Positions 9,006 to 25,665 of a stretch of DNA of 64,000 nt are shown in pieces. Below the pieces are notes generated by a model, which saw only the letters and a list, made by a program, of their open reading frames with translations, did not search any database and was not told the DNA's origin. The stretch lies in the NCBI RefSeq assembly GCF_002003665.1, contig NZ_JATM01000001.1:372001-436000 (forward strand). The letters run 5' to 3'. Numbering within the stretch: the first letter of the stretch is position 1; each line of letters starts with the position of its first letter. The position numbers and the translations under genes were made by a program. This stretch comes from Bombella intestini (GTDB taxonomy: Bacteria; Pseudomonadota; Alphaproteobacteria; Acetobacterales; Acetobacteraceae).

Positions 9006-10814
9006 TTGATTTCGCAGGGGCCTCAGGATGTTCAATCCGATGGTCCAAACGGAGCTAGTCCAGGTTTGACCGAGGCCAATCAGAAACCCAATCCCACTCT
9101 CTCCATCACACCCAGTCGCTCTGGTATAGAGCGCCGCTATGGAGATTTCCCAAGCTTTCCCGCTGCCCTTGATTACGCAGCACAGGGAGCCAGTGGCTTC
9201 AATATCTATTCTGGACGGGGAGACCTACTTGAAGTCCTTCCCTACAGCAAGCTACGGCAACAAGCCCACGCCACAGCCCGCCGCCTTCTCGGAATAGGGC
9301 TGCAACCAGGTGATCGGGTCGCCATTGTTGCGGAAAGTGATGGCGATTTCGCTCGGATCTTCTTTGGTTGCCAGTATGCAGGCCTCGTTCCTGCACCATT
9401 GCCTTTGCCAGTCGCTTTTGGCGGTAAAGACGGTTACATCAAGACGCTTCGTGGAATGATCACAAGTGCCGATGCTCGGGCTGTTGTCGTTCCAGAGGTC
9501 ATTGGTGGCTGGACGCCCGATATCATTGCCGATTTCCCTCTACTGTTCGGCGGATCACCTGCCGAACTAATGGCCCACGAGGAAAAGGACATCCCTCTTC
9601 CAGAAATCAAGGAAGATGCCCTCTCCTACCTCCAGTTTTCTTCTGGCAGCACACGTTTCCCTATGGGTATCAGTGTGACGCAGAAAGCGGGCATGGCCAA
9701 TGCTCATGCCATCGCTCAGTACGGCCTTCAGGTTTATCCTAGCTCCGATAAGCGTGATGACCGTTGTGTATCGTGGTTGCCTCTTTATCACGATATGGGA
9801 TTGGTCGGTTTCTTCCTGACGCCAATGACCTGTCAGCTATCTGTCGACCTCCTGCCTACGCGGGAATTTGCACGTCGTCCACACATCTGGCTGGAATTGA
9901 TCGCCCGGAACAAGGCTACTATGTCTTATAGCCCCTCTTTCGGCTATGAGCTCTGTGCTCGACGTGGCGCACGAGAGGATATCGACCTATCCTCATGGCG
10001 TGTTGCCGGCATCGGTGGCGACATGATCCGTCCGCACATCATCCATAACTTTGCCGAAACCTTCGCTAAACGAGACTTCAACAAAAAAGCCTTCGTTGCC
10101 AGCTACGGTATGGCTGAAACCACACTGGCCATCAGCTTTGCCCCTCTCAATACTGGACTGCGCACCGATACGGTCGATCTCTCGGTCATGGAACGAGAAG
10201 ATTATGCCCAGCCAGCTGAAGAAAGCACAGAAACGGCCCGTGATTTCGTTCTGTGCGGTGTCTGCCTCCCCAACCACCAGATTGAAGTCCGGGACAGCAC
10301 TGGAAGCGTACTGAAAGAACGTCAGGTTGGCACCGTTTATGTCCGCGGCCCCAGTCTGATGACAGGTTACTTCAGACGGCCGGAAGAAACGGCCAATGCA
10401 TTTTCTGGAGATGGCTGGTTGAACACCGGCGACATTGGCTACATGTTGGATGGTCAGATTGTCATCACCGGACGAGCCAAGGACCTCATCATCATTAACG
10501 CTCGGAACATCTGGCCGCAGGATCTGGAATGGGCGGCCGAGCATGAGGTAGCTTCTCTCCGTTCTCGCGATGTGGCAGTATTTTCTGTTGATGACAGTCA
10601 GGGAGAGCGTGTTGTGGCCCTAGTACAGTGTCGCTACACAGATGAAGAGCCTCGTAATAAGCTCAAAGAAGAATTGGTTGCCCTCTTCCGCCGTCTACAT
10701 GGTATTGATGTAGATGTGGTTCTGGTGCCACCACGGTCTCTACCCCAAACTTCCTCCGGAAAACTGACCCGGGCTCGTGCTAGGGCCATGTATCTTAACA
10801 GGGAATTCACCTGA
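9006..10814 (+). CDS. fatty acyl-AMP ligase / acyl-ACP synthetase of the sphingolipid locus
   Basis: An ANL-superfamily adenylate-forming enzyme, predicted to activate a fatty acid and load it onto the ACP encoded next door for serine palmitoyltransferase. Landmarks are LQFSSGSTRFP (phosphate loop), YGMAETTLA, TGDIGYMLDGQ, the hinge GRAKDLIIINARNIWPQD and the C-terminal SGKLTRARAR with the catalytic lysine. It has 602 residues. The start is TTG at 9006: a stop lies at 8997, AGGGG lies 10 nt upstream, and no ATG precedes the conserved N-terminus. The order ligase-ACP-SPT matches the ceramide genes of Caulobacter crescentus, where this ligase is required. A polyketide-type FAAL is the alternative. 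Confidence 0.85.
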   Translation: MISQGPQDVQSDGPNGASPGLTEANQKPNPTLSITPSRSGIERRYGDFPSFPAALDYAAQGASGFNIYSGRGDLLEVLPYSKLRQQAHATARRLLGIGLQPGDRVAIVAESDGDFARIFFGCQYAGLVPAPLPLPVAFGGKDGYIKTLRGMITSADARAVVVPEVIGGWTPDIIADFPLLFGGSPAELMAHEEKDIPLPEIKEDALSYLQFSSGSTRFPMGISVTQKAGMANAHAIAQYGLQVYPSSDKRDDRCVSWLPLYHDMGLVGFFLTPMTCQLSVDLLPTREFARRPHIWLELIARNKATMSYSPSFGYELCARRGAREDIDLSSWRVAGIGGDMIRPHIIHNFAETFAKRDFNKKAFVASYGMAETTLAISFAPLNTGLRTDTVDLSVMEREDYAQPAEESTETARDFVLCGVCLPNHQIEVRDSTGSVLKERQVGTVYVRGPSLMTGYFRRPEETANAFSGDGWLNTGDIGYMLDGQIVITGRAKDLIIINARNIWPQDLEWAAEHEVASLRSRDVAVFSVDDSQGERVVALVQCRYTDEEPRNKLKEELVALFRRLHGIDVDVVLVPPRSLPQTSSGKLTRARARAMYLNREFT

Positions 10815-10891
10815 AGGCTGAAGGGGCTATTCCCCATCAAGGGAGGATCATGTAGGTCTTCCCTCTTCGCTTGGTCGCAAAGGGACAAGAC

Positions 10892-11146
10892 ATGACAGAC
10901 AGTGTTGCTGATATCTCTCACATGATTCTCCAAAAACTTCTGGAGAACCCAAAAGTACCACGCGACATTTCCGAAGACAGCCGGATTGTTGAGGACTTGG
11001 CCTTCGACAGCCTTGCTGTCATGAATTTTGTAATGGAGATCGAAGATACGCTTGATGTCTCCGTACCTCTCGATAAACTTGCAGACATCCGCACCATTAA
11101 GGATCTGGCAGTCTGCCTGCATGCCATCAAGGCAGAACAAGCATGA
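10892..11146 (+). CDS. acyl carrier protein dedicated to sphingolipid synthesis
   Basis: An 84-residue ACP with the phosphopantetheine site at Ser40 in AFDSLAVMNF. It should carry the activated acyl chain from the upstream ligase to serine palmitoyltransferase. The ATG at 10892 is preferred over an in-frame TTG at 10871 because AAGGGA sits 6 nt upstream. Its stop overlaps the spt start (ATGA), so the two are translationally coupled. It is clearly different from the housekeeping AcpP at 24502-24744: the serine context is FDSLAV rather than ADSLDTVEL. Confidence 0.9.
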   Translation: MTDSVADISHMILQKLLENPKVPRDISEDSRIVEDLAFDSLAVMNFVMEIEDTLDVSVPLDKLADIRTIKDLAVCLHAIKAEQA

Positions 11147-12342
11147 GTGCCGGAATTTTTGACAAATATGCCACTCTGAAGGGAAACTATGACTCCCTGA
11201 TGGCTACAAGCCCGAGAAACCCTTTCGGTGTTGTGATAGAACGTCCCCTTTCAGCTACGGTAGGCATTATTGAAGGACGGGAGACGCTCCTCTTCGGGAC
11301 CAATAACTATCTGGGCCTCAGTCAGTCCACAACGGCGCAGGATGCAGCCATCCATACAGCAAAAACCATGGGGGTCGGGACAACAGGGTCCCGTATTGCC
11401 AATGGTACGTTTGGCCTGCATCAGAAACTAGAAAAAGCTCTAGCCACCGTCTTTAGAAAAAAACACGCCATGGTTTTTTCGACGGGCTACCAAGCTAATC
11501 TAGGGACGATTTCAGCCCTTGTGAACAAGGATGATATTCTCTTCCTTGACGCTGACAGTCATGCTTCCATTTATGATGGAGCTCGCCTTTCCGGTGCACA
11601 GGTCATCCGTTTCCGTCACAATGATCCAGCTGATCTGGAAAAACGTGTCGCTAGAACGGACAAAACGACCGGGGCTCGCCTGATCATCGCTGAAGGTATC
11701 TACTCCATGACGGGGAATATCGCTCCCCTCAAGGATTTTGTGGAAGTCAAGAAACGTCACAACATTCCTCTCATGGTTGATGAGGCTCATTCCTTTGGTG
11801 TACTGGGCGATCATGGTCGTGGCGTTGCAGAGATGCAGGGATGTGAGGATGACATTGACTTCATTGTCGGTACATTCTCTAAATCGCTTGGAACTGTTGG
11901 GGGCTATTGCGTAACAGATCATGATGAGATTGATCTCATGCGCCTTTGCTCCCGCCCTTATATGTTCACGGCCTCCCTACCGCCTGAAATCATTGCAGCA
12001 ACTTTAGCTGCGCTGGAGGAGGTTAAAAATCGCCCTGAGCTGCGTCAAAAACTTCAGGAGAATGCGGCTCGTCTACATCAAGGCTTTAAATCAGTCGGGC
12101 TGAATACGAGTAACTTCATTTCCCCTGTGATCGCCGTTACTCTGGAAGACATTCCACAGGCCATTACCTTTTGGAATGCCCTTCTAGATGCCGGGGTTTA
12201 TGTCAATCTTTCTCTACCCCCGGCAACTCCCGACAATAGACCGCTGCTGCGCTGTTCTGTTATGGCGGCACACTCCGCCACCGAAATTGATCGGGCAGTA
12301 GAAACCTTCGGCACAATTGCCAAAGAACTAAAAATCGTCTGA
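11143..12342 (+). CDS. spt: serine palmitoyltransferase (alpha-oxoamine synthase family)
   Basis: A PLP enzyme predicted to condense L-serine with an acyl thioester to give 3-ketosphinganine, the first sphingoid intermediate. It has 399 residues. The PLP lysine is Lys247 in GTFSKSLGTVGGY; other family landmarks are TNNYLGL, GTTGSRIANGT, DADSHASIYDG and VDEAHSFGVLG. Related alpha-oxoamine synthases (KBL, BioF, HemA) share these motifs. The SPT call rests on the overlapping ACP, the upstream acyl ligase and the downstream lipid genes. The predicted soluble homodimer fits bacterial SPTs. A terminator follows at 12357-12391. Confidence 0.9.
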   Translation: MSAGIFDKYATLKGNYDSLMATSPRNPFGVVIERPLSATVGIIEGRETLLFGTNNYLGLSQSTTAQDAAIHTAKTMGVGTTGSRIANGTFGLHQKLEKALATVFRKKHAMVFSTGYQANLGTISALVNKDDILFLDADSHASIYDGARLSGAQVIRFRHNDPADLEKRVARTDKTTGARLIIAEGIYSMTGNIAPLKDFVEVKKRHNIPLMVDEAHSFGVLGDHGRGVAEMQGCEDDIDFIVGTFSKSLGTVGGYCVTDHDEIDLMRLCSRPYMFTASLPPEIIAATLAALEEVKNRPELRQKLQENAARLHQGFKSVGLNTSNFISPVIAVTLEDIPQAITFWNALLDAGVYVNLSLPPATPDNRPLLRCSVMAAHSATEIDRAVETFGTIAKELKIV

Positions 12343-12356
12343 GTTTTTGGACAAAT

Positions 12357-12391
12357 AAAAGCCTCTGGAAAATAATCTTCCAGAGGCTTTT
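12357..12391. terminator. bidirectional intrinsic terminator between spt and the convergent nucleotidyltransferase-like gene
   Basis: A strong hairpin with GCCTCTGGAA and TTCCAGAGGC arms is flanked by an A-run on the left and TTTT on the right. It can end transcription from spt (plus) and from the convergent gene ending at 12415 (minus). Confidence 0.85.
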
Positions 12392-12414
12392 CTATTGCTC
12401 AATCGTCCAGAAGG

Positions 12415-13359
12415 TTAGTGTTGCATTTTCCTAGACCGCACATGCCGGGTTCTCCATAAGAAGAGCGGAAGGGTGAGGAGCGGATGCCTCTTCTCAAAAG
12501 CCGATACATGGATAGCTTTGCCAGTATGGCGCTGTATCTTCCATAAAAGATACGCCACACCATCTCTAAACGTAAACGCCGCCTTGATAAGACGGGCTAT
12601 GTTCAGAGGCTTTCCAAAAGTATGCACTTTTCTCCAGTTCCTTGAGGCCTTACTCCGAGCAGATTCAGTAAGCTGAGGGTATAACACCCCTCCTTCACTG
12701 CGATAACTCAGAGAGGCCCTGCGCCAAGCCGCTTTTAGAAGAGCTCCGTAACGCTCTTCTTTTCCAGCCAAAAGGTTGTGGCTGCGTCCCTTCTTTTCCA
12801 CACGCAACTCTGCGGCATAGGTATGGGCAAACAGATTGTGCCAATATTGTGCTGCCCCGCCTTCTTCAGGCCCTAGAAGGGCAGCCCAACAGGAAGCTGT
12901 AATCACACATTGACTAATCGCCTGCAAAAGATGATCGGCACTTGCTCCATCCCGTACCCAAACCATACGAACAGGCTGGCAGAAACGGGCCCATATAGTC
13001 GTATCCAATGTAAAAAGTGTGCTTCGCCCCAGGAATTGCTTAAGAGATAAAAAAGCTACCTTAGCCCGTAAGGTCGTCCCTCCCTCTGTTTTATGCTCCA
13101 TATAATAGACATTGGGAGGAAGCAGACGATTAGCCATGCGAGCCAGAACACTGCCTCCCAGACTCTCTGGTCGGTCGGTAATGACATAAAAATCAATTAT
13201 GCCCTCAGGATCTACATCACGAAGAACTGAGCCGTAAAACAGGATACCCAACGGCTGCCTATCTAACCTACCAGCAATAGACTCTGCGAACTGTGCGACT
13301 TCCTCAGGAATAGCCGTTGTCAGCTCATCGATCAGTGTCTCTCTAATGATGTCAGACAT
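12415..13359 (-). CDS. nucleotidyltransferase-like protein of the sphingolipid locus
   Basis: A 314-residue protein with a pol-beta-type nucleotidyltransferase start: Gly43-Ser44 in FYGSVLRD, then GIIDFYVI where a canonical enzyme has S-D-x-D. Only the second aspartate (Asp56) is kept and the first is isoleucine, so activity is uncertain. The rest has no motif I recognise and ends in a basic tail. The ATG at 13359 is used; the longer reading starts with TTG. It overlaps the kinase gene by 8 nt, so the pair is one unit. Its placement suggests a role in sphingolipid head-group chemistry (inference). Confidence 0.6.
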   Translation of the reverse strand: MSDIIRETLIDELTTAIPEEVAQFAESIAGRLDRQPLGILFYGSVLRDVDPEGIIDFYVITDRPESLGGSVLARMANRLLPPNVYYMEHKTEGGTTLRAKVAFLSLKQFLGRSTLFTLDTTIWARFCQPVRMVWVRDGASADHLLQAISQCVITASCWAALLGPEEGGAAQYWHNLFAHTYAAELRVEKKGRSHNLLAGKEERYGALLKAAWRRASLSYRSEGGVLYPQLTESARSKASRNWRKVHTFGKPLNIARLIKAAFTFRDGVAYLLWKIQRHTGKAIHVSAFEKRHPLLTLPLFLWRTRHVRSRKMQH

Positions 13360-14338
13360 GCACAAACCGGAAAGCCGGCCCCTCTTCCAACATCAGCCGT
13401 CCACTAGCAGATGCCGGGAAAACCTCACCATCCAAGACAAAATCGCTATCCGTCTCAAGCTGCATCTCCTGCACGGTTGCACTTACATAATCCTCATGCG
13501 ACCGCAGCCATTCTGGTGCCCGCCCCCTCAAAAGATTAAAGCAAGCCCTTGGCAGAGCTTTCGGAAATGCATGAGCATCAAGAAAATGGAACCCACTTCC
13601 GCCATTCCCTGTGCTCCAGAATGGCCAAATGCCGTGAGAAAGTTTTTCAAGCGCTGTTACCATGAACAGAAAACTGCGCCCGTCTCTACTCTCTCGAGGA
13701 AGATCTTTCCCCTGTGCCGACCAAGATAGTCTGTCCCCCTTCATCCATGAGTGACGACTTCGGCGAAAAAGAAGACTCGCCATGCTAGTAAAAAGCGTGA
13801 AAAAAACAGCGAGATCATGAGGGGCAAATTTCAAAACATTCGGCGAATGGGCAATACGCACCGCCCTAGCATACCCCGTACACCCTCCGAACATGCCCAA
13901 TACTGCAGGCCTTTCTTCATCGGGCCATGACAACCTAATTGGCGCACGGATACAGCTTTTCAAGCCTTCAGGTCGCAAAAGACGGTCAATTGCTGCATCA
14001 CCATGCAAGCCAAATCCAACATCCCCCGCTATGAGGTTGGTGTTACCTGAAGGGAGAATAGCCACAGCCGGCAGAGGGCAGTCGTGATAAATAGCTGCAA
14101 TTGTCGTCAAACAAGCACTAACCGTACCATCTCCGCCGCTAATGACAATCAGATCCACACCCTTGCTCTTCAGTTCAGTCAGATGAGCTGGCAGGTGACT
14201 GTCATTCAGGGAGGAAACACAATAATCTCCCAACTTCTGCCGTGCCATACGCAGGAAATGCCCTTTATCCTGAGCATTTTTGCGACTGTTGGGATTATGT
14301 ATCAGGGCTGGCTGTACAACGTTCTTCAATGTCTGCAT
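13352..14338 (-). CDS. diacylglycerol/sphingosine-kinase-family lipid kinase (candidate ceramide kinase)
   Basis: A 328-residue member of the DAGK catalytic-domain family. The ATP-site motifs are present: NPNSR at 15-19, SGGDGT ending at 72 and LPSGNTNLIAGD at 95-106 (canonical LPxGTxNDFA). These enzymes phosphorylate lipid hydroxyls at the inner membrane. In Caulobacter crescentus a kinase of this family (CpgB) makes ceramide 1-phosphate on the way to anionic ceramide phosphoglycerate. Here the gene sits back to back with spt and a lipid-export-like operon, so ceramide or a sphingoid base is the likely substrate (inference). A diacylglycerol kinase is the main alternative. Confidence 0.8.
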   Translation of the reverse strand: MQTLKNVVQPALIHNPNSRKNAQDKGHFLRMARQKLGDYCVSSLNDSHLPAHLTELKSKGVDLIVISGGDGTVSACLTTIAAIYHDCPLPAVAILPSGNTNLIAGDVGFGLHGDAAIDRLLRPEGLKSCIRAPIRLSWPDEERPAVLGMFGGCTGYARAVRIAHSPNVLKFAPHDLAVFFTLFTSMASLLFRRSRHSWMKGDRLSWSAQGKDLPRESRDGRSFLFMVTALEKLSHGIWPFWSTGNGGSGFHFLDAHAFPKALPRACFNLLRGRAPEWLRSHEDYVSATVQEMQLETDSDFVLDGEVFPASASGRLMLEEGPAFRFVHV

Positions 14339-14483
14339 CTATCTACCACACATCCGCCCAGAAACATAAAAATGCCAGACTGTTTCCCAAGCTGGCCGAA
14401 CTCCTTTAACATGGCTATGCTAAGGGGGCCAGCAAGGAGTTATCCTCCTGATAGATCGCCCCCGTCATGGATATGGTGCCATA
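14339..14483. promoter_or_regulatory. divergent promoter region with a 7-bp inverted repeat
   Basis: This gap separates the minus-strand lipid kinase from the plus-strand metallophosphoesterase operon and must carry both promoters. It contains the inverted repeat GCTGGCC (14391-14397) and GGCCAGC (14427-14433). A second complementary pair, CTCCTT (14401-14406) and AAGGAG (14434-14439), interleaves with the first, so alternative pairings are possible. Promoter boxes cannot be assigned with confidence. Confidence 0.4.
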
Positions 14484-15401
14484 ATGCTTTCCGACCCGTC
14501 CGCCACTTCAGCTCACCGGCGTGACTCTTCTGTCTGTCTAGCCCATATGTCAGACCCGCATCTGCCTCCTCCCAGCATCGCATGGTCTGCTTTTCTCAAC
14601 AAACGTCTGCTTAGCCGCATTCTCTGGCTCAGTAAAAGACGTCATGTTCTACGCCCCTCCATCACAGCTGAACTGCTTGCAAACGTCGCATCCCATAAGG
14701 AACTTTCTGGACTACTGATCAGTGGAGACATCACCAATTTCGGTACCAAGGAAGAATACGGTCAAGCAGCTGCATGGCTATCAACTTTACCTCTAACGCC
14801 CGTGGTCGTGCCGGGGAATCACGATTTCATGGCTCCAATCTCTTACGAAAACAGTCTATCCCAATGGGAAAAATGGGCGGACAGTTCTTTCCCATTTGTC
14901 CGTTTTTTCGGAAAAGTTGCCGTTATTGGGCTCAACTCCGCTTTACCAACGCCGCCTTTTACCGCCTATGGCCGTATTGATCGGAAACAACGCCAGAAAT
15001 TAGCAAGGCTCCTTGCGGAATTGGGTGAAGAAGGATACTGCCGGGTTGTCATGATTCATCACCCCCCCCGTAAAGAACTGTTGCCCTATAGAAAATCCCT
15101 TATCAATACACCTGCCGTATCCGATATCTTACGGACGTATGGGGCAGAGCTTGTTCTTCATGGGCACTCCCACGATGCCACTCTGACCACTGTTGAAGGA
15201 ACAGACATTCCTCTTTTAGGGGTCGGAGCCGCAGGCATGGACAGTCAAAACCCTCAGCGTAAAGCATCATGGAATCATCTGACTTTCACCCCTCATCATG
15301 AGGGCTGGCAAATCAAGCTGATGCGCAGGGACCATAAAGGCCATCTTTTTTCTCGCATGGAATGGCTTTCCACCACTCCTGTAAGGCAGATAGTATGTTA
15401 A
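14484..15401 (+). CDS. calcineurin-like metallophosphoesterase of the sphingolipid operon
   Basis: A 305-residue cytoplasmic metallophosphoesterase. The metal-binding motifs appear in order: LAHMSDPHL (DxH), SGDIT (GD), VPGNHDF (GNHD), MIHHPP and LVLHGHSHD (GHxH). It is the first gene of an operon that continues into LptF-like and LptG-like genes; its stop overlaps the LptF-like ATG. Related small enzymes include cyclic phosphodiesterases and LpxH-type UDP-sugar pyrophosphatases. The context suggests it cleaves a phosphate or pyrophosphate bond in lipid head-group assembly, but the substrate is unknown. ATG 14484 leaves about 20 residues before the first motif, which is normal. Confidence 0.8.
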   Translation: MLSDPSATSAHRRDSSVCLAHMSDPHLPPPSIAWSAFLNKRLLSRILWLSKRRHVLRPSITAELLANVASHKELSGLLISGDITNFGTKEEYGQAAAWLSTLPLTPVVVPGNHDFMAPISYENSLSQWEKWADSSFPFVRFFGKVAVIGLNSALPTPPFTAYGRIDRKQRQKLARLLAELGEEGYCRVVMIHHPPRKELLPYRKSLINTPAVSDILRTYGAELVLHGHSHDATLTTVEGTDIPLLGVGAAGMDSQNPQRKASWNHLTFTPHHEGWQIKLMRRDHKGHLFSRMEWLSTTPVRQIVC

Positions 15402-16564
15402 TACGAAGCAACCTGCCAACACTGGACCGTTATTTGCTCCGGCAGATGGTCCCGCCTTTTGCAGTTGCGCTAGGGACCATGCTGGTTACTCTCTTGTTGG
15501 AACGACTACTAACACTGTTCAACCATTTGGCGAGCAGTGGCAGTTCGATTGCAACCCTGATTACACTCCTTAGTGATCTCCTGCCGCATTATATGGGGCT
15601 AGCCCTCCCAGCAGCGCTCTGCATTGCGATCTTCATGACCGTCAATCGGATGAGCGAGCATAATGAAATTGATGTGCTGTGCGCCGCTCACATTTCCCTG
15701 CTGCGTATCAGTCAGCCCTACATCAAAGTTGGCGCCATTCTAGCCGTTCTCAGCTTACTTCTTTATGGCTACATTCAGCCAATCGCTCGCTATGACTACC
15801 GAGAGGGGTTCTACTTCGCCAAACATACAGGCTGGGCTCCCCACCTGCAGTCCGGCATGTTTGCTTCAACATCATCCAGTACGATGCTGACAGCAGATCG
15901 TGTTGATCATGGCGGCTCCCACCTGAAGAACATTTTTATCCGTAACCTAAAAGAGAATGGCAACATCGAGCTGATAACGGCTCCTAGAGGGTTGCTGACC
16001 CTTTCCGAACGAGATCAGGCAACACAACTTGATCTCTGGGATGGGCAAGTCGTCCATCTGAACAAACCGGCCATACCTGACAATCACGCCACCATCATCC
16101 ATTTCGAACATATCGCCCGTGTGATCGAACGCAGTAAAAATCGGCGGAGTTTTCGTTCCAGAGGGGATGATGAACGAGAAATGACCACACCTGAATTGTT
16201 TCAGGCCCTCCGTCATGGATCTCCACGCCTGCCCTATATCGTTCTTCGTTCAGAGATGGATTTCCGCCTAGCACGGGCTATCGGCATCATGTTCATTCCC
16301 CTACTAGCCATCGCCTTTGCTATTGGGAGAAAACGGCGGAAATCTGTAATTGGACAGATTACGCTCGCCCTCATTCTGGTTGGTTTTAATGAGGTACTTC
16401 TGTTCGGACACAGTATGGCATCTAGCGGAAAAATGTCTGTCTGGCTGGCAATCTGGGTACCCGAAACCCTTTTTTGCCTTGGGTGCACAGCCGCCCTGCT
16501 CGCACGCTCCCAAGTTTCTTGGCGTAACAGAAAGCCGACCTTACTGAACAAGGCATCTTCATGA
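15395..16564 (+). CDS. LptF-family permease (paralog in sphingolipid operon)
   Basis: A 389-residue inner-membrane protein of the LptF/LptG (YjgP/YjgQ) family. It starts with LDRYLLRQMV, has three N-terminal helices with a cytoplasmic coupling region (RMSEHNEIDVLCAAHISLLRI), then a periplasmic beta-jellyroll domain, then three C-terminal helices. In the LPS system such permeases form the channel that hands lipid from LptB2FG to LptC. Here it is embedded between a phosphoesterase and a fatty acid hydroxylase, which suggests a sphingolipid cargo (inference). ATG 15395 overlaps the upstream stop; an in-frame ATG at 15362 is less likely. Confidence 0.85.
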   Translation: MLIRSNLPTLDRYLLRQMVPPFAVALGTMLVTLLLERLLTLFNHLASSGSSIATLITLLSDLLPHYMGLALPAALCIAIFMTVNRMSEHNEIDVLCAAHISLLRISQPYIKVGAILAVLSLLLYGYIQPIARYDYREGFYFAKHTGWAPHLQSGMFASTSSSTMLTADRVDHGGSHLKNIFIRNLKENGNIELITAPRGLLTLSERDQATQLDLWDGQVVHLNKPAIPDNHATIIHFEHIARVIERSKNRRSFRSRGDDEREMTTPELFQALRHGSPRLPYIVLRSEMDFRLARAIGIMFIPLLAIAFAIGRKRRKSVIGQITLALILVGFNEVLLFGHSMASSGKMSVWLAIWVPETLFCLGCTAALLARSQVSWRNRKPTLLNKASS

Positions 16565-17661
16565 GTTCTCCACTGGCAACACCAACCCTCCTGAAGATCT
16601 TTCTTAAACCGCTTCTTAGTAAAATTTTGCTCTGCTGCGGTGTTCTAACGGCCCTTCTTGAAATTCTGGCCCTGCTAGATGATGCCTCTACTATTCTGGA
16701 CCGACATTTAGGGATCAACGGGCTATTCAAATATATAGGCCTGCACCTGCCAACACTTATGGTAGAAATCATGCCTCTGTCTGTCATGATCGGTGGCTTG
16801 TTTACTCTTCTACAGATGGCTCTTTCCAGCGAGATTGCCGTATTAAGGGCTGCTGGCCTTTCTACCCTCAACATGTTCCGGTACCTTCTACCCATTCCTC
16901 TACTACTCGGTCTTATGTGCATGGTAGTGCAGTTATGGGCCGTCCCCCCCTGTGAACAGGAACTAAACCGTTGGTGGAATGAAGGGGCAACTCAAGCTAA
17001 TGCAACAGATGATCTACACAGTCTATGGTTCCGTCTCGGGCAGGACATCATTCACGTCGGCACCATCAGCCATGGTGGACGCTCCCTTACCGAAGTCATT
17101 TTTTACCACCGTCAGTTAGAGACCGGAAACCTGATTGGCAGCCAATACTTTAAGCACCTAACCTATGAAAATGGACAATGGGTCAATCATGGCGAGGCCA
17201 GACAGCTTGTCATTCTCAAAGAACAAACCCAGGCGCAACTCAACAGTGAGGCAGCCCCCCCCATCCTAAAAGCCACTCCGCAGGAAATCATCAATATGAC
17301 ACTGCAGGGTGTCTATTATACGCCACATCAATTCTGGAAAATTTTCTCGGGGAAAGCGCCTTCCAATTTACCTAGGTCAAATTATTTGATGGCACTATGT
17401 GCCATACTTATGCTGCCGGTACAGATGGCTGTGATGCTTCTCATCACTCTACCCATCACCTATATTCCGCCCCGTGCGGGATTGCGGAACCCACTGCCGG
17501 TGTATGTCATGGCGGCTGGTCTGGGAGTGGTCATTCTCCAGGGGATGATTTCAGCTCTGGGAAATTCAGGTTCCCTTCCCATATTAATCGCTATAAGTTC
17601 AGGCCAGATCGTGGCAGCCCTGTTTGGTCTGGCATGGATACTGCGGATGGAGGAAAAATGA
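16561..17661 (+). CDS. LptG-family permease (paralog in sphingolipid operon)
   Basis: A 366-residue partner of the preceding gene, coupled through an ATGA overlap. It shows the same architecture: N-terminal helices with LPTLMVEIMPLSVMIGGLFTL, a coupling segment (SSEIAVLRAAGLSTLNMFRYL, given only to locate it), a periplasmic domain from about residue 105 to 265, and three C-terminal helices. A heterodimer with the LptF-like protein is expected. No LptB-like ATPase, LptA or LptC gene is nearby, so if it acts in export it must borrow LptB or have a distant partner. Whether these are the cell's only LptFG cannot be told from this window. Confidence 0.85.
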   Translation: MSSPLATPTLLKIFLKPLLSKILLCCGVLTALLEILALLDDASTILDRHLGINGLFKYIGLHLPTLMVEIMPLSVMIGGLFTLLQMALSSEIAVLRAAGLSTLNMFRYLLPIPLLLGLMCMVVQLWAVPPCEQELNRWWNEGATQANATDDLHSLWFRLGQDIIHVGTISHGGRSLTEVIFYHRQLETGNLIGSQYFKHLTYENGQWVNHGEARQLVILKEQTQAQLNSEAAPPILKATPQEIINMTLQGVYYTPHQFWKIFSGKAPSNLPRSNYLMALCAILMLPVQMAVMLLITLPITYIPPRAGLRNPLPVYVMAAGLGVVILQGMISALGNSGSLPILIAISSGQIVAALFGLAWILRMEEK

Positions 17662-18464
17662 GTACGTTCAAACAATTTTTCCAAGGCACAACTCTGATGC
17701 AAAAAGGCAGGAGTTATGACTTGGGAAAAATGAATCTTTCGCAGTTATGGGCGGCTTACCTCACTTACCCGACGATCCTGCTGTATTTTGCTCTGATCAT
17801 TGGTACAGCCGTGCTCAGCCTGTACCTGCATCATAGCTGGTGGGGGGTCATCATCCCCATCCCTGTCATCATCGCTGTGTATCCAACAGCTTGGTACATC
17901 ATTCACCGTTACATCTTGCATGGGCGTTGGTTCTATCGGAACCCGATCACAGCCTCCATGTGGAAACGCATCCATTTTGATCATCATCAAGATCCCCATC
18001 TTCTAGAAGTGCTATTCGGGTCACCGTTGAACACTGTTCCAACCATGATGGTCATCACCATGCCCATAGGCTGGCTGATCGGTGGCTGGGGTGGTGCCTT
18101 TTCTGCACTCTCCACGGCTCTGGTCATGACCTGCATCTATGAGTTCTTCCATTGTATCCAGCATTTGGCATACAAACCTCGCTGGCAGTGGGTTGTGTAT
18201 ATCAAGCAGCTTCATGTCCTACATCATTTCCACGATGAAGATGGCAATTACGGTATTACCAACTATCTGCCGGACCGGCTAATGGGCACCTTCTATCGTT
18301 CCGCCAAGGAACGTCCCCGTAGCCCGTATGTCTTCAATTTGGGCTATACGGTAGAAGAAGCAGAACGTTATCCCTGGGTTATGCGGCGGACTGGTGCTCC
18401 GCCTCGTGATCGGCCCGATCCTGCCCGTGCACCTAAAAACGAAGAGCTTTCCAAGAGCGCATGA
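17658..18464 (+). CDS. fatty acid hydroxylase / sterol desaturase superfamily enzyme
   Basis: A 268-residue integral membrane di-iron enzyme with the eight-histidine pattern: His83 and His88 (HRYILH), His106/109/110 (HFDHH), His165 and His169 (HCIQH), His186/189/190 (HVLHH). Two hydrophobic hairpins lie at about 37-80 and 122-165. The superfamily includes sphingolipid C4-hydroxylases and ceramide fatty-acid 2-hydroxylases, so hydroxylation of a sphingoid base or ceramide acyl chain is the natural guess here. The start is the ATG at 17658, which overlaps the LptG-like stop (ATGA); a longer upstream reading lies inside lptG and is rejected. Confidence 0.85.
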   Translation: MSTFKQFFQGTTLMQKGRSYDLGKMNLSQLWAAYLTYPTILLYFALIIGTAVLSLYLHHSWWGVIIPIPVIIAVYPTAWYIIHRYILHGRWFYRNPITASMWKRIHFDHHQDPHLLEVLFGSPLNTVPTMMVITMPIGWLIGGWGGAFSALSTALVMTCIYEFFHCIQHLAYKPRWQWVVYIKQLHVLHHFHDEDGNYGITNYLPDRLMGTFYRSAKERPRSPYVFNLGYTVEEAERYPWVMRRTGAPPRDRPDPARAPKNEELSKSA

Positions 18465-19216
18465 GTATTTCGGTACTGATCCTCGCTGGGTCACGGGATG
18501 GTGAACGTGACCCGCTAGCACGTATGGGCAATGTATCTCATAAAGCACTTTTGCCCATTCAGAATATCCCCATGATCGAACGTGTTCTCCATACGCTGGA
18601 ACAAGTTCCCGAAATTGGGCGAATATGGGTGAGTATCGAGCAGCCTGACCTGCTGGCGTATTTAAAGGATCGCATCACCCTCTTACAGGCTGCCCGCTCT
18701 CCGAGTGAGAGTGTCGCTCAAGCGCTCGACCTTATCGGTACCCCCTGCCTCGTCACTACAGCAGACCATGCCCTACTCCGCCCTGAGTGGGTTACGGAGT
18801 TTCTCACAAAAAGTCAGAAAGCTGATGTCGATCTGACCGCAGCTATCGCCCTGAAAAGCACCATTTTACGAGACATACCCCAAACAAAACGAACCTATAT
18901 TCGTCTTTCAGACATGCATTTCTCGGGATGTAACCTTTTCTGGATGGCATCTCCCCGATCCAAAGCGGTTGTCACGCTTTGGCAGCATCTTCAGCGTTAT
19001 CGGAAGAAACCTCTCCGTATGGCTATGATATTGGGCCTGCCCATTATTCTGCGCACTCTTACCCGCACACTCAGTTCCAAACGACTTGAGCGGCGTATCC
19101 ATACCCTCACGGGTGCTAAGATACAGCTCATTCCTCTTTCCGATGGTCGGGCTGCCGTTGATGTCGATAAACCTGCAGATGCTATCCTCGTAGAGCAACT
19201 ACTTAGTCAAAGTTAA
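18461..19216 (+). CDS. MobA-like NTP transferase
   Basis: A 251-residue protein of the MobA/IspD-type nucleotidyltransferase fold. The N-terminal LILAGSRDGERDPLA carries the NTP-binding loop and Lys28 sits in VSHKALLP; PCLVTTADHALLRP holds the metal-binding aspartate. Relatives transfer CMP, GMP or other nucleotides to sugars, alcohols or inositol phosphate. It is the last gene of the operon (ATGA overlap with the hydroxylase). It may make an activated head group such as a CDP-alcohol for the sphingolipid, but the substrate is unknown. MobA itself is unlikely given the context and a divergent C-terminus. Confidence 0.8.
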   Translation: MSISVLILAGSRDGERDPLARMGNVSHKALLPIQNIPMIERVLHTLEQVPEIGRIWVSIEQPDLLAYLKDRITLLQAARSPSESVAQALDLIGTPCLVTTADHALLRPEWVTEFLTKSQKADVDLTAAIALKSTILRDIPQTKRTYIRLSDMHFSGCNLFWMASPRSKAVVTLWQHLQRYRKKPLRMAMILGLPIILRTLTRTLSSKRLERRIHTLTGAKIQLIPLSDGRAAVDVDKPADAILVEQLLSQS

Positions 19217-19220
19217 AGTA

Positions 19221-19250
19221 CCCATGCTGCCTGTGAACGGACAGCATGGG
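19221..19250. terminator. hairpin between convergent genes
   Basis: Perfect 9-bp arms CCCATGCTG (19221-19229) and CAGCATGGG (19242-19250) stand between the convergent MobA-like gene and the propeller gene. There is no strong U-tract on either side, so it may be a weak terminator or an mRNA 3'-end stabiliser. Confidence 0.5.
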
Positions 19251-19265
19251 GAAAAAGCATATATC

Positions 19266-20153
19266 TTATTTAAAAACTTGCTGTTTTAGATTGAAGAGAA
19301 CTGGCCCCAGGCCGCGCCGTATTTTCTTGAAGTCAACCAAAGTGACATCCCCCGCAGCAGAGAGCGTGTGCATACCATCCGGATAATCCTTAATTTCCGG
19401 GACATGCAAAGGAATGGAATCACCTCCGCATATTGAAGGACGTCCTTTTTTAAAGCCGCTGATCCGGAGCAAGCGGATACCACCGCCATAAGTCTCTGAA
19501 CAATCCTGAACAGGCAGAACAACCTCACCATCTTCTATGAAAGGCGTCCCCCCCGGGCGAGCACCGCTACGATCAATCAAAAAGTGGCCCATATCACACC
19601 ACGGACCTGTCAGTTCCTCTGCCAACGCAATATGCAATGTGCTTTGACGAGCCAATTTCGGGGTGGGTGGCGTCCAAAATAGCCACCAACGCCCCGCATG
19701 ATGAAGCGGCGTTGCATCAATCGCCCCGATGGGAAAATCAAACGTAGGGACACGTTCCCACTCATAAGGAAAGGACGTGGCTTTGTAGAGGGTCAGGCGT
19801 CCCGACTTGTAGGCCTCGGGCAGCATGTAAACGCATCCCTCATGCTGAAACACGTAGGGGTAAGACAGATGCCACTCCTCACTCAGTACACAGCGCCGTT
19901 CCTGTAAAGCAAAATGCTCATCATAAATGAGTACCTCAATGATACCCTTCCCCTGAGCATAATCATAATATTCCGCAAAAACATGCAAATGCCCTGCATG
20001 CCACAGGCCAAAAGGATCTGCCAAAAATCCTTCTTTTCCGCAGGATGGCAGGAAGGTCATGTCGATGTCATCCAGACTATTTTGTCGGATAATCTGCTCA
20101 AAAGGCGCATGCAGAATGGCTGAACGCCAGTAATCCATTTTAAACAGTTTCAT
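19266..20153 (-). CDS. GINT1 N-terminal-type five-bladed beta-propeller protein
   Basis: A 295-residue soluble protein without a signal peptide. Its landmarks match the family annotated after the N-terminal domain of plant glucosamine inositolphosphorylceramide transferase 1, a GH43/GH117-like propeller: ADPFG at 45-49, VFAEYYDY at 58-65, HLSYPYVF at 95-102, MLPEAYKSG at 110-118, AIDATPL at 144-150, ARPGGTPF at 198-205 and LPVQDC at 213-218. Conserved acidic residues (Asp46, Glu61, Glu113, Asp146) sit where propeller glycosidases hold theirs. No GT64 transferase domain is present. Beside sphingolipid genes it may act on or bind a glycosylated lipid (inference). Confidence 0.7.
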   Translation of the reverse strand: MKLFKMDYWRSAILHAPFEQIIRQNSLDDIDMTFLPSCGKEGFLADPFGLWHAGHLHVFAEYYDYAQGKGIIEVLIYDEHFALQERRCVLSEEWHLSYPYVFQHEGCVYMLPEAYKSGRLTLYKATSFPYEWERVPTFDFPIGAIDATPLHHAGRWWLFWTPPTPKLARQSTLHIALAEELTGPWCDMGHFLIDRSGARPGGTPFIEDGEVVLPVQDCSETYGGGIRLLRISGFKKGRPSICGGDSIPLHVPEIKDYPDGMHTLSAAGDVTLVDFKKIRRGLGPVLFNLKQQVFK

Positions 20154-20322
20154 CTCTTATCATCCTAGGGATACATGTTCATAAAATCACTACGTAGCAT
20201 ATAGAGCCATCTTCTCCAGTGGAAGAGCTCGCTTTTTCTCTACCTACAGCTGACAGTTAGACCGTCTTTCTGTAATTTCCTACTTTGATACCTCATCTCA
20301 CCACGGCCTAAGGATTTCATGA

Positions 20323-21129
20323 ATGTCCATCTCATACAACGTTGATACCGCTATCAATATTCGCTTTCATGCAGCCCTTAGCCTGGTCAAGGAAGCCTCA
20401 GCCCTTGCCTTAAAAATGCAACCTGAACCCGGAAAACCTGTAGCTGACCTTAAAGGCCATCAGGATTACGTCACGGAAGCAGACAAAACGGTGGAACAAT
20501 TTATCACCACTCGCCTGAACTCCCTTTTCCCTGAAGATGCCTTTCTAGGGGAAGAGCATGGCGGCACTTCGACAGGGCTTTTCCGATGGGTAATCGACCC
20601 CATTGATGGAACATCCAACTACGCCAGAGGGCGTAATCGCTGGTGCATCTCCCTTGGTCTTATGTATCAGGATATCCCCGTCGCTGGCATCATAGAGGCT
20701 CCTGCCATTGGGGAGACTTTTACAGCCAGAAAAGGAAAAGGGGCTTTCCTTAATGGACGTCCCATCAAGGCCTCCGCTACCGAAAACATGAGGGAAGCCA
20801 TGGTAGAAATCGGCTGGTCACCTTATGTTCCCGAAGGATGGTACCCTGAAAAAATGCAGGCACTGCTCCATAAAGGCGTCATGCCTCGTTCACTGGGCTC
20901 CGGAGCTCTAGCTCTAGCTGACGTTGCCTGTGGCCGCTCCGATGGATATCACGAATATGTCATTTTCCTATGGGATGTTGCTGCAGCTCTGGTCCTTCTT
21001 GAAGAAGCTGGAGCTCGTGTATCACCCTTCCTAAAAATGGGAGGCCTGACACAGCGCACGACCATTCTAGCGGGAGCCCCCATGATTGCCTCTACCCTTT
21101 CCGACATACTAGGCGTTACGCTGGATTAA
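20323..21129 (+). CDS. inositol-monophosphatase-family phosphatase
   Basis: A 268-residue Mg-dependent phosphatase of the IMPase/FBPase superfamily. Metal-site motifs are complete: DYVTEADKTVEQ at 48-59, Glu77-Glu78 (GEEHGG), DPIDGTSNY at 92-100 and WDVAAALVLLEEAG near 218. Candidate substrates are inositol phosphate, histidinol phosphate or other sugar phosphates. The start ATG 20323 has AGGA 8 nt upstream. It is divergent from the GINT1-type gene. A link to an inositol-bearing sphingolipid is tempting, but the family is broad and no inositol phosphate synthase is visible. Confidence 0.85.
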   Translation: MSISYNVDTAINIRFHAALSLVKEASALALKMQPEPGKPVADLKGHQDYVTEADKTVEQFITTRLNSLFPEDAFLGEEHGGTSTGLFRWVIDPIDGTSNYARGRNRWCISLGLMYQDIPVAGIIEAPAIGETFTARKGKGAFLNGRPIKASATENMREAMVEIGWSPYVPEGWYPEKMQALLHKGVMPRSLGSGALALADVACGRSDGYHEYVIFLWDVAAALVLLEEAGARVSPFLKMGGLTQRTTILAGAPMIASTLSDILGVTLD

Positions 21130-21178: not shown

Positions 21179-21880
21179 ATGTCCAAATCATTTTCCTCTA
21201 TATTGCGAACAGCTTCTATCACTGCAGGAGCAGGCCTACTCGCTCTAAGTGCCTACGCGAGTGATGCAGCAGCAGCCAAAGCCTCCAAGCAACAGGCTCT
21301 GGTAAACAAAGCTACTTTCGCTGTACAGTCCGCCCTTCTTGATTCCAAAATTAAGGAAAATACGGCCCATATTCTTCATGAAACAAAGGCCGTTGTAATC
21401 TGCCCTGATGTTACAAAGATGTCCCTCGTCTTTGGTGGAAGCGGCGGCCGATGCGTTCTGCTAGCCCGTGGTGCTAACAACTCTTGGTCTGATCCAGCTT
21501 TCTATCACCTGAGTGCTGGCTCCTTTGGTATTCAAGCTGGCTATCAGCATAGCCAGTTGTTCTTCTTCGTTACATCTCAAAAAGCTCTGTTGAACCTCAT
21601 GGATCATGAGTTTAGCTTTGATGCCAGTGCCGATGCTGCTTTCGGGAACAATAGCAGCAGCACGCAGAACACCCCCAAAGAGGTCTATGCTATGCAGAAG
21701 ACAAAAGGGGTTTCCGCTGGGGTATCTCTTGGCAGCAGCAAACTAAAACCAGATAGCGAAGCAAACCGCGCTTACTATCACCAGGTTGTTGGGCCGGAGG
21801 ACATTGTCGTCCGTATGCAGGTTAATAACAAAGCTGCCGATCCGTTGCGTCGGGTCGTAATGAAGGCTTTTAACCAGTAA
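21179..21880 (+). CDS. exported SYLF (Ysc84-type) lipid-binding domain protein
   Basis: A 233-residue protein with an N-terminal signal peptide (hydrophobic core TASITAGAGLLALSAYA, likely cleavage near AYASDA). The rest matches the SYLF domain: AVVICPDVTKMSLVFGGSGGRCVLL, cited only as the location of the core strand pattern, then AGSFGIQAGYQHSQLFFFV. SYLF domains of eukaryotes bind phosphoinositides; bacterial secreted members are poorly understood. It has its own ribosome-binding site (CAGGAG) and a terminator behind it. Proximity to the sphingolipid genes may be coincidental. Confidence 0.8.
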   Translation: MSKSFSSILRTASITAGAGLLALSAYASDAAAAKASKQQALVNKATFAVQSALLDSKIKENTAHILHETKAVVICPDVTKMSLVFGGSGGRCVLLARGANNSWSDPAFYHLSAGSFGIQAGYQHSQLFFFVTSQKALLNLMDHEFSFDASADAAFGNNSSSTQNTPKEVYAMQKTKGVSAGVSLGSSKLKPDSEANRAYYHQVVGPEDIVVRMQVNNKAADPLRRVVMKAFNQ

Positions 21881-21891
21881 CACTCGTCAGG

Positions 21892-21927
21892 AGAGCATCA
21901 TTCTACTTCAAATGATGCTCTTTCCTT
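21892..21927 (+). terminator. intrinsic terminator after the SYLF gene
   Basis: Perfect 11-bp arms AGAGCATCATT (21892-21902) and AATGATGCTCT (21911-21921) with an 8-nt loop, followed by TTCCTTC. It lies between the SYLF gene and the convergent mltG. Confidence 0.75.
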
Positions 21928-21957
21928 CGTGACCTATTACACTGAATCGAAATAGAA

Positions 21958-23046
21958 CTACGGGGAAAGAGCTTTTTTCACCCGCCGGTAGGCACGTACA
22001 TGATCAGTCTGCTCGGCAAGCGTCCGGGCGAAACTATGCCCTCCGTGTCCTGTTGCTACAAAATACAAAGCATCTCCCATAGCCGGATGAGCTGCCGCTT
22101 CGAGGGCTTCACGCCCCGGAGAACAAATAGGCCCAGGCGGCAGACCTGAATGAAGATAGCTATTATAGGGGCTATCAAACTGTAGGTCTTCATGAGTTAA
22201 GGGACGAGGCAAAGTACCCTCTCCATCACTCAACGCATAAATGACTGTGGGATCTGTCTGAAGCTTCATACCCTGTTTTAGCCGGTTCAGAAAAACCCGT
22301 GCAATCTGCGGGCGTTCCTCAGCAACGGAAGTTTCCCTTTCTATGAGGGACGCAAGAATTAATAACTCTTCTGGTGAAGTAATAATCCCCTGCAAAGCGA
22401 CCTGATCACGCCCCGCCCACACATCTTGAAGCGTCTTCGTCATCAGACTCGTCATATGTTGAAGAAGCACCTGACGTTCCATTCCCCAAACATAAAAAAA
22501 TGTCTGCGGCGCTACCTGCCCTTCTGCAAAAGCGGGTAGCTGCCCCTGTAAGGCCGGAGCTTGCATCAGTACTGTTGTTATATGTTTGGCTGTTAACCCC
22601 TCTGGGATCGTCAGGCTATGAGTAACCGGGCGGCCATGCCGGAGAATATCCAGGCTATGTGCCATGGAGACTTGCTCTGGGAATCTCAGTTCCGCTGCAT
22701 GAATACTTCCCTGCGAGCGGGTGACATACATGGCTATCTTAAAAAATAGGGACGACACCGCCCCACGTGCCACGACACCATTGTCCTGAAGCGCAGCGAC
22801 AACCCGATCCACCCCACCCTTAGGGATAATGACTATACGCTCAGATTGTAGAGGCCCCGGATCTGTGTAGTGACCATACCCTGCAAAGGCAGTTCCACCA
22901 ACTGCAACTAGAAACAGGGTAAAAAGTCGCCCCTTGGTCAGAAGGCGAAAGCGTTTCTTGACCCCGCCTTCCTTCTCTCCATCGGGAGCAGGAGTCTCCG
23001 ATGAAACGTTAGTGCCTTCGCATTCTGATACAGGTTCCTGCGCCAT
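21958..23046 (-). CDS. mltG: endolytic murein transglycosylase MltG
   Basis: An inner-membrane lytic transglycosylase that releases nascent glycan strands during peptidoglycan synthesis. It has 362 residues: a charged cytoplasmic N-terminus, one membrane helix at about 40-58, a LysM-like region and the YceG catalytic domain. The catalytic glutamate is Glu236 in LASLIERET; other landmarks are LQTDPTVIYAL, DSPYNSY, LPPGPICSPG and the C-terminal GGHSFA. It follows fabF by 43 nt, a common alphaproteobacterial arrangement. Confidence 0.93.
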   Translation of the reverse strand: MAQEPVSECEGTNVSSETPAPDGEKEGGVKKRFRLLTKGRLFTLFLVAVGGTAFAGYGHYTDPGPLQSERIVIIPKGGVDRVVAALQDNGVVARGAVSSLFFKIAMYVTRSQGSIHAAELRFPEQVSMAHSLDILRHGRPVTHSLTIPEGLTAKHITTVLMQAPALQGQLPAFAEGQVAPQTFFYVWGMERQVLLQHMTSLMTKTLQDVWAGRDQVALQGIITSPEELLILASLIERETSVAEERPQIARVFLNRLKQGMKLQTDPTVIYALSDGEGTLPRPLTHEDLQFDSPYNSYLHSGLPPGPICSPGREALEAAAHPAMGDALYFVATGHGGHSFARTLAEQTDHVRAYRRVKKALSP

Positions 23047-23089
23047 AGTCTTACCTCAAGCTAACAAAAATCTGCATCAGACGATCACA

Positions 23090-24373: not shown

Positions 24374-24501
24374 CGCCGCCTTACCTCACAATTCATAAAT
24401 ACGCATAAAGCGAAACGGGTATGTTCCGCTTCGCTCTTTCAGGACGGAAGCGAGCCGATACCCGATCAGCCCGTTCCATCATCCAATCCCTCTATAAGGA
24501 A

Positions 24502-24744
24502 TTAGGCAGCTTTCTGCTTGGTGATGTACTCGATAGCATCATTCACAGTAGCGATCTTCTCGGCAGCATCTTCCGGAATCTCAACAGAGAATGCTTCCTC
24601 AAAAGCCATGACCAGCTCAACCGTGTCCAAGCTGTCAGCACCCAGATCGTCAATGAAGGAAGCATCCGGCTTCACCTGATCCGCATCGACGCCCAAATGT
24701 TCTACGACGATCTTCTTCACCTTATCAGCGATTTCGTTGCTCAT
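24502..24744 (-). CDS. acpP: acyl carrier protein AcpP
   Basis: The housekeeping fatty-acid ACP, 80 residues, acidic, with phosphopantetheine serine Ser38 in [17 protein letters not shown]. It lies between fabG and fabF on the minus strand, separated by 164 and 128 nt, so it probably has its own promoter and high expression. Confidence 0.97.
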
Positions 24745-24908
24745 CTGCCTTAAATCCTTGCTACCCTTCCCGGGTGTTTCTAAGAAAAAACCTGCCTGCT
24801 TTTCAGCTTCTGGACATCAAAAAATGTCCGGCAATGAAGCCATACTCTGATCCTTGGTCAGGCCAAGCAGGCCGCGCTTAGCATGTTTTTCTGCAAACGC
24901 CAACTTTT

Positions 24909-25652: not shown

Positions 25653-25665
25653 CAAGACTACTCCC

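Follow-up and report, generated by a model that had tools for sequence, protein, structure and literature searches.

In Caulobacter, the locus CC_1152-CC_1168 contains five ceramide genes and six head-group genes, with LptC2/LptF2/LptG2 and a potential flippase proposed for export (PMC11324152). Here, we describe a related locus at positions 9006-21129 of a 64,000-nucleotide stretch of Bombella intestini DNA (the window; contig NZ_JATM01000001.1, positions 372,001 to 436,000), with emphasis on its nucleotidyltransferase (NTase), which occupies the position of the Caulobacter protein CpgC. We consider it probable, at roughly two chances in three, that the product built and exported by this locus is an anionic phosphosphingolipid of the type found in Caulobacter, ceramide-phosphoglycerate (CPG).

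In Caulobacter, CpgB is the ceramide kinase, CpgC (ccna_01219) takes part in converting ceramide-1-phosphate to CPG, CpgD is a CTP:phosphoglycerate cytidylyltransferase and CpgA leads to CPG2 (PMC12275187). The text of PMC12275187 describes the mechanism of the CpgC step as not identified, and a May 2026 preprint still words it as proceeding 'via an unidentified mechanism' (PMC13228409). Genetic analysis showed that CPG formation depends on CC_1160 and CC_1161 and that CC_1153 and CC_1158 are required for, or aid, the formation of CPG2 and not of CPG, and CC_1161 was proposed from its InterPro domain to form nucleoside diphosphate-activated ceramide (PMC11324152). The pairing of CC_ with ccna_ numbers used here is our own, from gene order. 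A Tam41-type cytidylyltransferase at the CpgC position offers a concrete hypothesis for the step from ceramide-1-phosphate to ceramide phosphoglycerate, which, if true, would join the head-group chemistry of bacterial sphingolipids with that of cardiolipin in mitochondria.

A compact variant of the Caulobacter-type cluster

The host genome (2.02 Mb, 12 contigs) is that of a Bombella-like member of Acetobacteraceae, and the nearest named relative by NTase protein is Bombella favorum (91% identity in a scan from which records of the genome itself were possibly excluded). Like CC_1152-CC_1168, the window carries aasR, acpR, spt, a lipid kinase gene, a gene at the CC_1161 position, a phosphoesterase gene, lptF2/lptG2 and a MobA/CofC-like gene, in an order that follows the Caulobacter gene numbers closely. 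In contrast to Caulobacter, the locus has neither cerR nor bCerS (bCerS, with a short-chain dehydrogenase/reductase (SDR), is 42 kb off), CpgA and CpgD were not found in the genome, a fatty-acid-hydroxylase-superfamily (FAH) gene is part of the block and a propeller gene adjoins it. Since head-group genes and LptF2/G2/C2 were already described for Caulobacter (PMC11324152), the evidence does not support the supposition of a first-pass annotation of the window that a module for head group and export next to spt is an addition to a core-only pathway, and the locus is a compact variant of the Caulobacter-type phosphosphingolipid cluster. Its genes are as follows.

9006..10814, plus strand: aasR, fatty acyl-AMP/ACP ligase (NF006624, 877 bits, cut-off 600; near acpR/SPT in relatives)
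10871..11146, plus strand: acpR, dedicated acyl carrier protein (ACP) (PF00550, 41 bits; DS motif conserved; ATGA overlap with SPT)
11143..12342, plus strand: serine palmitoyltransferase (SPT) (NF047599, 600.6 bits, cut-off 500; top PDB matches are SPT)
12357..12391, no strand: terminator-like palindrome between the convergent SPT and NTase genes (inverted repeat, seen by eye)
12415..13359, minus strand: NTase, CpgC position, Tam41-like, a proposed CTP:ceramide-1-phosphate cytidylyltransferase (AlphaFold2 (AF2) model, Foldseek, PF09139 in some relatives, position)
13352..14338, minus strand: lipid kinase, at the position of the ceramide kinase CpgB (DAGK_cat, 50.5 bits; GGDGT conserved)
14484..15401, plus strand: calcineurin-like metallophosphoesterase (MPE), CC_1158 position (PF00149, Metallophos, 52.7 bits; metal-binding motifs conserved)
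15395..16564, plus strand: LptF2, second LptF-type permease (PF03739, LptF_LptG, 181.7 bits; part of the genome's second LptF/G pair)
16561..17661, plus strand: LptG2, second LptG-type permease (PF03739, LptF_LptG, 186.2 bits)
17658..18464, plus strand: FAH enzyme (PF04116, FA_hydroxylase, 67.7 bits; His boxes intact)
18461..19216, plus strand: MobA/CofC-like nucleoside triphosphate (NTP) transferase, CC_1153 position (PF12804, NTP_transf_3, 53.3 bits; CofC weak, E 0.005)

Every gene named by the first-pass annotation is present where it was placed, with Pfam or NCBIfam matches for all except the NTase-like open reading frame (ORF), and its note of intact motifs is borne out among relatives: in each of their alignments (47 rows for acpR, 34 for MPE), no less than 97% of rows keep the respective motif (kinase GGDGT, MPE metal motifs, SPT lysine, ACP DS, hydroxylase His boxes). 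Its picture of ATGA-coupled operons holds at four junctions (acpR/SPT, lptF2/lptG2, lptG2/FAH and FAH/MobA). MPE and lptF2 overlap by ATGTTAA, so that lptF2 starts at 15395. The kinase and NTase genes are paired on the minus strand, and the propeller gene lies on the strand opposite to its neighbours. The FAH ORF call from 17397 is overlong, the coupled ATG being at 17658. Given the minus-strand pair, there would be at least three transcription units, and the junctions and hairpins from which their boundaries were drawn suggest aasR-acpR-SPT (plus), kinase-NTase (minus) and MPE-lptF2-lptG2-FAH-MobA (plus), with the propeller gene (minus) set apart by strand switches and hairpins.

A gene block that accompanies SPT

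SPT was searched for in 150 Acetobacteraceae genomes, 50 of which had a match at E<=1e-60. Genomes G027 and G092 (weak matches, 36% identical) and a weak second match in G102 were dropped, giving 48 SPT-positive genomes; locus counts cover 47 spt loci, namely this set minus the window's own. Gene presence was judged by tblastn and profile hidden Markov models, ORF calls being poor in high-GC loci. The NTase is present in 35 of the 47 loci, where it is accompanied by the kinase (35), MPE, LptF2, LptG2 and MobA (33 each), FAH (31), an inositol monophosphatase (IMPase)-family gene (23) and the propeller (13). As for the other 12 loci, five of the genomes carry the NTase on another stretch and seven have no match at E<=1e-10 (loci L041, L042, L044, L045, L047, L054 and L055). 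In all five spt-separated genomes (G131, G117, G063, G054 and G066), NTase-kinase-MPE-lptF2-lptG2-FAH-MobA are found together. G063 was set aside, its SPT and NTase genes both adjoining contig ends and possibly being true neighbours, so that spt and the block are truly separated in four genomes (G131, G117, G054 and G066, in the last by ~22 kb). The block genes are not scattered, in line with the first-pass annotation, and they appear from genome comparison to behave as one block that stays intact even where spt has moved away.

Genome-wide, the NTase is present in 41 of the 48 SPT-positive genomes and in 1 of the remaining 102 (Fisher p 2.5e-28, uncorrected for kinship), and the absence of the NTase from seven rows, when placed on a quickly built SPT tree, calls for at least three changes on well supported branches. 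The sole NTase-positive genome outside the SPT-positive set, G056 (L110), carries the block beside an SPT-like enzyme that is below every cut-off and nearest to bioF; its lipid perhaps has another long-chain base and takes its head group from this module.

The block also occurs beyond Acetobacteraceae. A class-level search found the NTase in 42 of 385 genomes, five of them Acetobacteraceae. Among the 30 class-level loci listed with ~1.5 kb flanks, five of which are from Acetobacteraceae including the window, the kinase is present in 27 and SPT in 22. In longer stretches from 20 genomes (two Acetobacteraceae), a frequent order is aasR-cerR-acpR-SPT-NTase-kinase-MPE-lptF2-lptG2-FAH-bCerS-MobA; several of these stretches are without MPE, kinase or other genes, are rearranged, or are ended by contig edges. 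A scan of named genomes gave 454 NTase relatives. The best 80 come mostly from Acetobacteraceae, a few being from Burkholderiales and two from Methylopila-like genomes, and they have MPE (78), LptF2 (78), LptG2 (77), MobA (76), kinase (75), SPT (69), FAH (68) and the propeller (42). The Burkholderiales loci L176, L178, L184 and L198 contain NTase, MPE, LptF2/G2, bCerS and MobA, the kinase match being weak and distant or missing, and no SPT match was found within the Burkholderiales stretches examined.

A remote structural match of the NTase to Tam41

Tam41, which synthesizes cytidine diphosphate-diacylglycerol in mitochondria, moves cytidine monophosphate (CMP) from cytidine triphosphate (CTP) onto a lipid phosphate. 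The AF2 model of the window NTase, built from 31 sequences, has a mean predicted local distance difference test score of 90.7, and its top four PDB matches in Foldseek are Tam41 (E 8.1e-9 to 7.8e-8, probability 1.0), followed by aminoglycoside nucleotidyltransferases as the next fold family (E 2.7e-5 or worse). Like Tam41/TAMM41 (PF09139; 6IG2, 6IG4), the NTase has the nucleotidyltransferase fold, a GS motif and one retained catalytic Asp; unlike Tam41, with which it shares 12-13% identity at a template modelling (TM) score of ~0.5, it has a lipid kinase and SPT as neighbours and ceramide-1-phosphate as its predicted substrate. Its invariant residues include G43, D56, K100, W123, R125, Q128, P129, E184 and R186, and at position 58, the place of another acidic residue in the signature of the fold, at least 90% of rows have Tyr. 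Tam41 is reported to retain one of three acidic residues (PMC11646218).

Scored singly against PF09139, family members L093, L202 and L096 reach 28.8 bits (cut-off 24, E 9.8e-7), 21.8 bits and 11.6 bits, respectively. In a phylum-wide search with PF09139, 1 of 299 genomes matched at E<=0.001, with none over the cut-off; that match is L202, an NTase-family member adjoining an ORF that by eye resembles a DAGK-type kinase.

The NTase lies between SPT and the kinase in most relatives' loci. Because Tam41 acts on a lipid phosphate and a predicted ceramide kinase adjoins, ceramide-1-phosphate would be the natural substrate, and we infer from the structural model that kinase and NTase together yield ceramide-1-phosphate and then cytidine diphosphate (CDP)-ceramide. 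More broadly, we put at even odds the idea that the CpgC-position family, widespread in proteobacteria, is a sphingolipid branch of Tam41 that makes CDP-ceramide from ceramide-1-phosphate, in a bacterial CDP-sphingolipid pathway parallel to that of CDP-diacylglycerol (CDP-DAG), and that acetic-acid bacteria use a reduced gene set for their own outer-membrane sphingolipid. To the suggestion in PMC11324152, this analysis adds evidence from the fold, linkage across the family and a connection to Tam41 rather than CdsA. The term 'CDP-ceramide' together with 'bacteri' occurred in no paper searched.

Ceramide genes missing from the locus

Two of the five ceramide genes, cerR and bCerS, are not in the locus. 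Profiles of either gene find nothing in 30 of the 35 NTase loci of Acetobacteraceae; for cerR in the host genome, the search covered the locus only. A bCerS homologue, which the comparison with relatives brought to light, is encoded in the same genome at G000:C6:341057-342226, ~42 kb from SPT, divergently paired with a classical SDR (dehydrogenase). This pair is present in all six Acetobacteraceae genomes examined (the window's and five others), and in G056 it lies within the cluster, adjoining the block and the gene of the SPT-like enzyme, and is thereby connected with this pathway. The classical SDR may therein stand in for CerR.

With regard to CPG2, the genome's only two CDP-alcohol phosphotransferases are PgsA-like (over the cut-off) and PssA-like (89 of 107 bits), so that no CpgA was found, and nothing in the genome matches the CpgD-like protein of L048 at E<=1e-10. 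A second phosphoglycerate is therefore not expected.

Proposed pathway and alternative explanations

In the proposed pathway, AasR would load an acyl chain onto AcpR, SPT would condense it with serine, and bCerS and the classical SDR would acylate and reduce the product to ceramide, one chain of which FAH would hydroxylate. The lipid kinase would then form ceramide-1-phosphate, and the Tam41-like NTase would use CTP to convert it to CDP-ceramide, an activated lipid ready for the joining of a polar head that MobA and the phosphoesterase may build or trim. Finally, LptF2/LptG2 would extract the product and pass it to the outer membrane by way of the shared Lpt bridge. The gene identities, the conservation of the block, the remote relation to Tam41, the location of the bCerS-SDR pair and the negative searches for CpgA and CpgD are observations of this analysis; the ceramide kinase and the need for CpgC in CPG formation are known from Caulobacter papers; and the CDP-ceramide chemistry, the hydroxylation, the SDR role and the export route are proposals. 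The comparison suggests that the phosphosphingolipid of acetic-acid bacteria may be a simpler one, served by an exporter of its own. Among the literature matches listed, there was no relevant experimental report on sphingolipids of acetic-acid bacteria or Bombella.

Several observations weigh against this pathway or parts of it. The window NTase has no Pfam match (E<=0.1) and no NCBIfam match (E<=0.01), its structural match to Tam41 is loose (TM 0.47-0.54, root mean square deviation ~6-7 A) as well as low in identity, PF09139 is matched by only 3 of 38 NTase-family members even at E<=10, Tam41 did not turn up in profile searches of PDB sequences, and phmmer of L202 against 6IG2 gave only E 1.6. 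L093, the best PF09139 scorer, comes from a 20 kb stretch of genome G271 that has SPT-NTase-bCerS and MobA and no kinase match. The orthology of NTase with CpgC and of kinase with CpgB is assigned by position, plus, for CpgC, a CDP-DAG-synthase InterPro domain that the published work mentions. The genome yielded no candidate for an enzyme acting on CDP-ceramide, its only CDP-alcohol phosphotransferases being PgsA- and PssA-like. Genes at the CC_1153 and CC_1158 positions persist here without CpgA and CpgD, and the chemistry may differ. The seven SPT-positive genomes without an NTase match may put another head group on ceramide, and L039 and L040 (genomes G116 and G029) keep SPT, NTase, kinase, FAH and MobA in a locus without MPE, LptF2 and LptG2.

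In a competing scheme, the NTase attaches phosphoglycerate (or another group) directly to ceramide-1-phosphate, or acts on a head-group phosphate, and no CDP-ceramide is formed. The need for both CC_1160 and CC_1161 in Caulobacter fits this scheme, which also avoids the further condensing enzyme that a CDP-ceramide route would require; the closest solved fold, however, is Tam41 with its CMP transfer to a lipid phosphate, ahead of aminoglycoside nucleotidyltransferases, and we regard direct attachment as a tentative alternative of rather low probability. Bacterial Tam41 proteins are able to make CDP-DAG (PMC11646218 citing Kimura 2022), and the NTase might accordingly be an ordinary CDP-DAG synthase for phospholipids that merely adjoins spt. 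This is very unlikely: the genome encodes one CdsA, so the NTase need not serve phospholipids, and it tracks SPT across genomes and is found with the lipid kinase in 35 of 35 loci. As the cell's only CDP-DAG synthase it is rejected, CdsA being present. Scarcely credible is a KBL/BioF-type identity for SPT, which would make the locus unrelated to sphingolipids. The families are closely related, as seen in the 340 bits of the window protein to the bioF model, but it exceeds the cut-off of the SPT equivalog while the BioF, KBL and ALAS models all fall below their own, its best matches in a PDB search are SPT structures, and a bCerS homologue (E<=1e-15) is present in 48 of 48 SPT-positive genomes against 14 of the 102 others. 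The equivalog scores rule this identity out, and the enzyme is a genuine SPT, as first annotated.

The remaining alternative, implied by the initial view that the whole set makes one lipid, is that all twelve genes, including the following two, produce a single glycosylated inositol-type sphingolipid.

19266..20153, minus strand: GINT1_N-type propeller, associated and outside the block (PF24793, 111 bits; position variable in relatives)
20323..21129, plus strand: IMPase-family phosphatase, probably an unrelated neighbour (PF00459, Inositol_P, 180.6 bits)

Strong propeller homologues (E<=1e-60) are found in 33 of the 48 SPT-positive genomes; the one further genome that has them is G056, with its block and SPT-like enzyme. 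A relative's cluster (L017) contains a GT4 glycosyltransferase, both in keeping with a glycosylated product. On the other side, the propeller is in 13 of the 35 NTase loci and often unlinked, the IMPase is missing from 12 of the 35, and stretches of genomes other than Acetobacteraceae showed neither of them; the propeller has no glycosyltransferase as a second Pfam domain, it is set apart by strand switches and hairpins, and the IMPase passes no listed equivalog cut-off. The whole set as one unit is not supported, and we consider such a lipid unlikely and prefer the phosphosphingolipid described above.

Exporter, hydroxylase and neighbouring genes

As of 2024, PMC11087976 stated that no transporter had been identified. 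Like LptF/LptG of the lipopolysaccharide (LPS) exporter, LptF2 and LptG2 belong to one Pfam family and are encoded as a pair; they differ from the LPS proteins in being a second copy and in scoring 188 of 230 and 166.6 of 240 bits, which falls short of each of the two NCBIfam equivalog cut-offs. LptF2 matches its cluster counterparts in six other loci (E 1e-35 to 4e-59) but, at E<=1e-3, neither member of the canonical pair encoded by the same genome, and LptG2 matches the cluster LptG2 in four of six loci (E 6e-17 to 1e-28), against 1.7e-8 for the canonical pair. Since both are closer to other clusters' copies than to their own genome's canonical pair, the sequence evidence supports an old, dedicated putative exporter. 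Different LptG-like genes adjoin acpR in L042 and L044.

In genomes from outside Acetobacteraceae, too, the FAH gene has lptG2 on one side and bCerS/MobA on the other, and in other orders it keeps its placement next to bCerS or MobA; its product is probably a ceramide chain hydroxylase. MobA is the final gene of the block in relatives. In L100 and L104, the only two loci scanned for it, a CDP-alcohol phosphotransferase gene sits between kinase and MPE; L100, a relative from outside the family, has a second one between lptG2 and FAH (L100:16115-17320). A GT4-type glycosyltransferase gene follows MobA in L017 (14985-16055; Pfam scan) and, by eye, in L018, L019, L024, L032 and L034; none was seen in the window.

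Like plant GINT1, the propeller protein (295 aa) has the N-terminal propeller domain PF24793; unlike GINT1, it is without the glycosyltransferase part (GT64) and has a weak GH43 match with no glycosyltransferase domain. Its model resembles GH43/GH117/GH130 propellers. Homologues were counted in 34 of 150 genomes at E<=1e-60, 11 weaker ones (of 45 at E<=1e-20) being dropped; all 34 genomes have the NTase, even if unlinked. A role of the propeller in the same lipid pathway is possible. The IMPase, at 101.8 of 332 bits to the inositol monophosphatase equivalog and below the cut-off of each NCBIfam equivalog listed, is probably an unrelated neighbour and was rejected as a member of the unit on its distribution. 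Ysc84 and the IMPase frequently come after the block in Acetobacteraceae, and downstream in the window (21179-26610) lie Ysc84, MltG and FabF/FabG/FabD-type genes.

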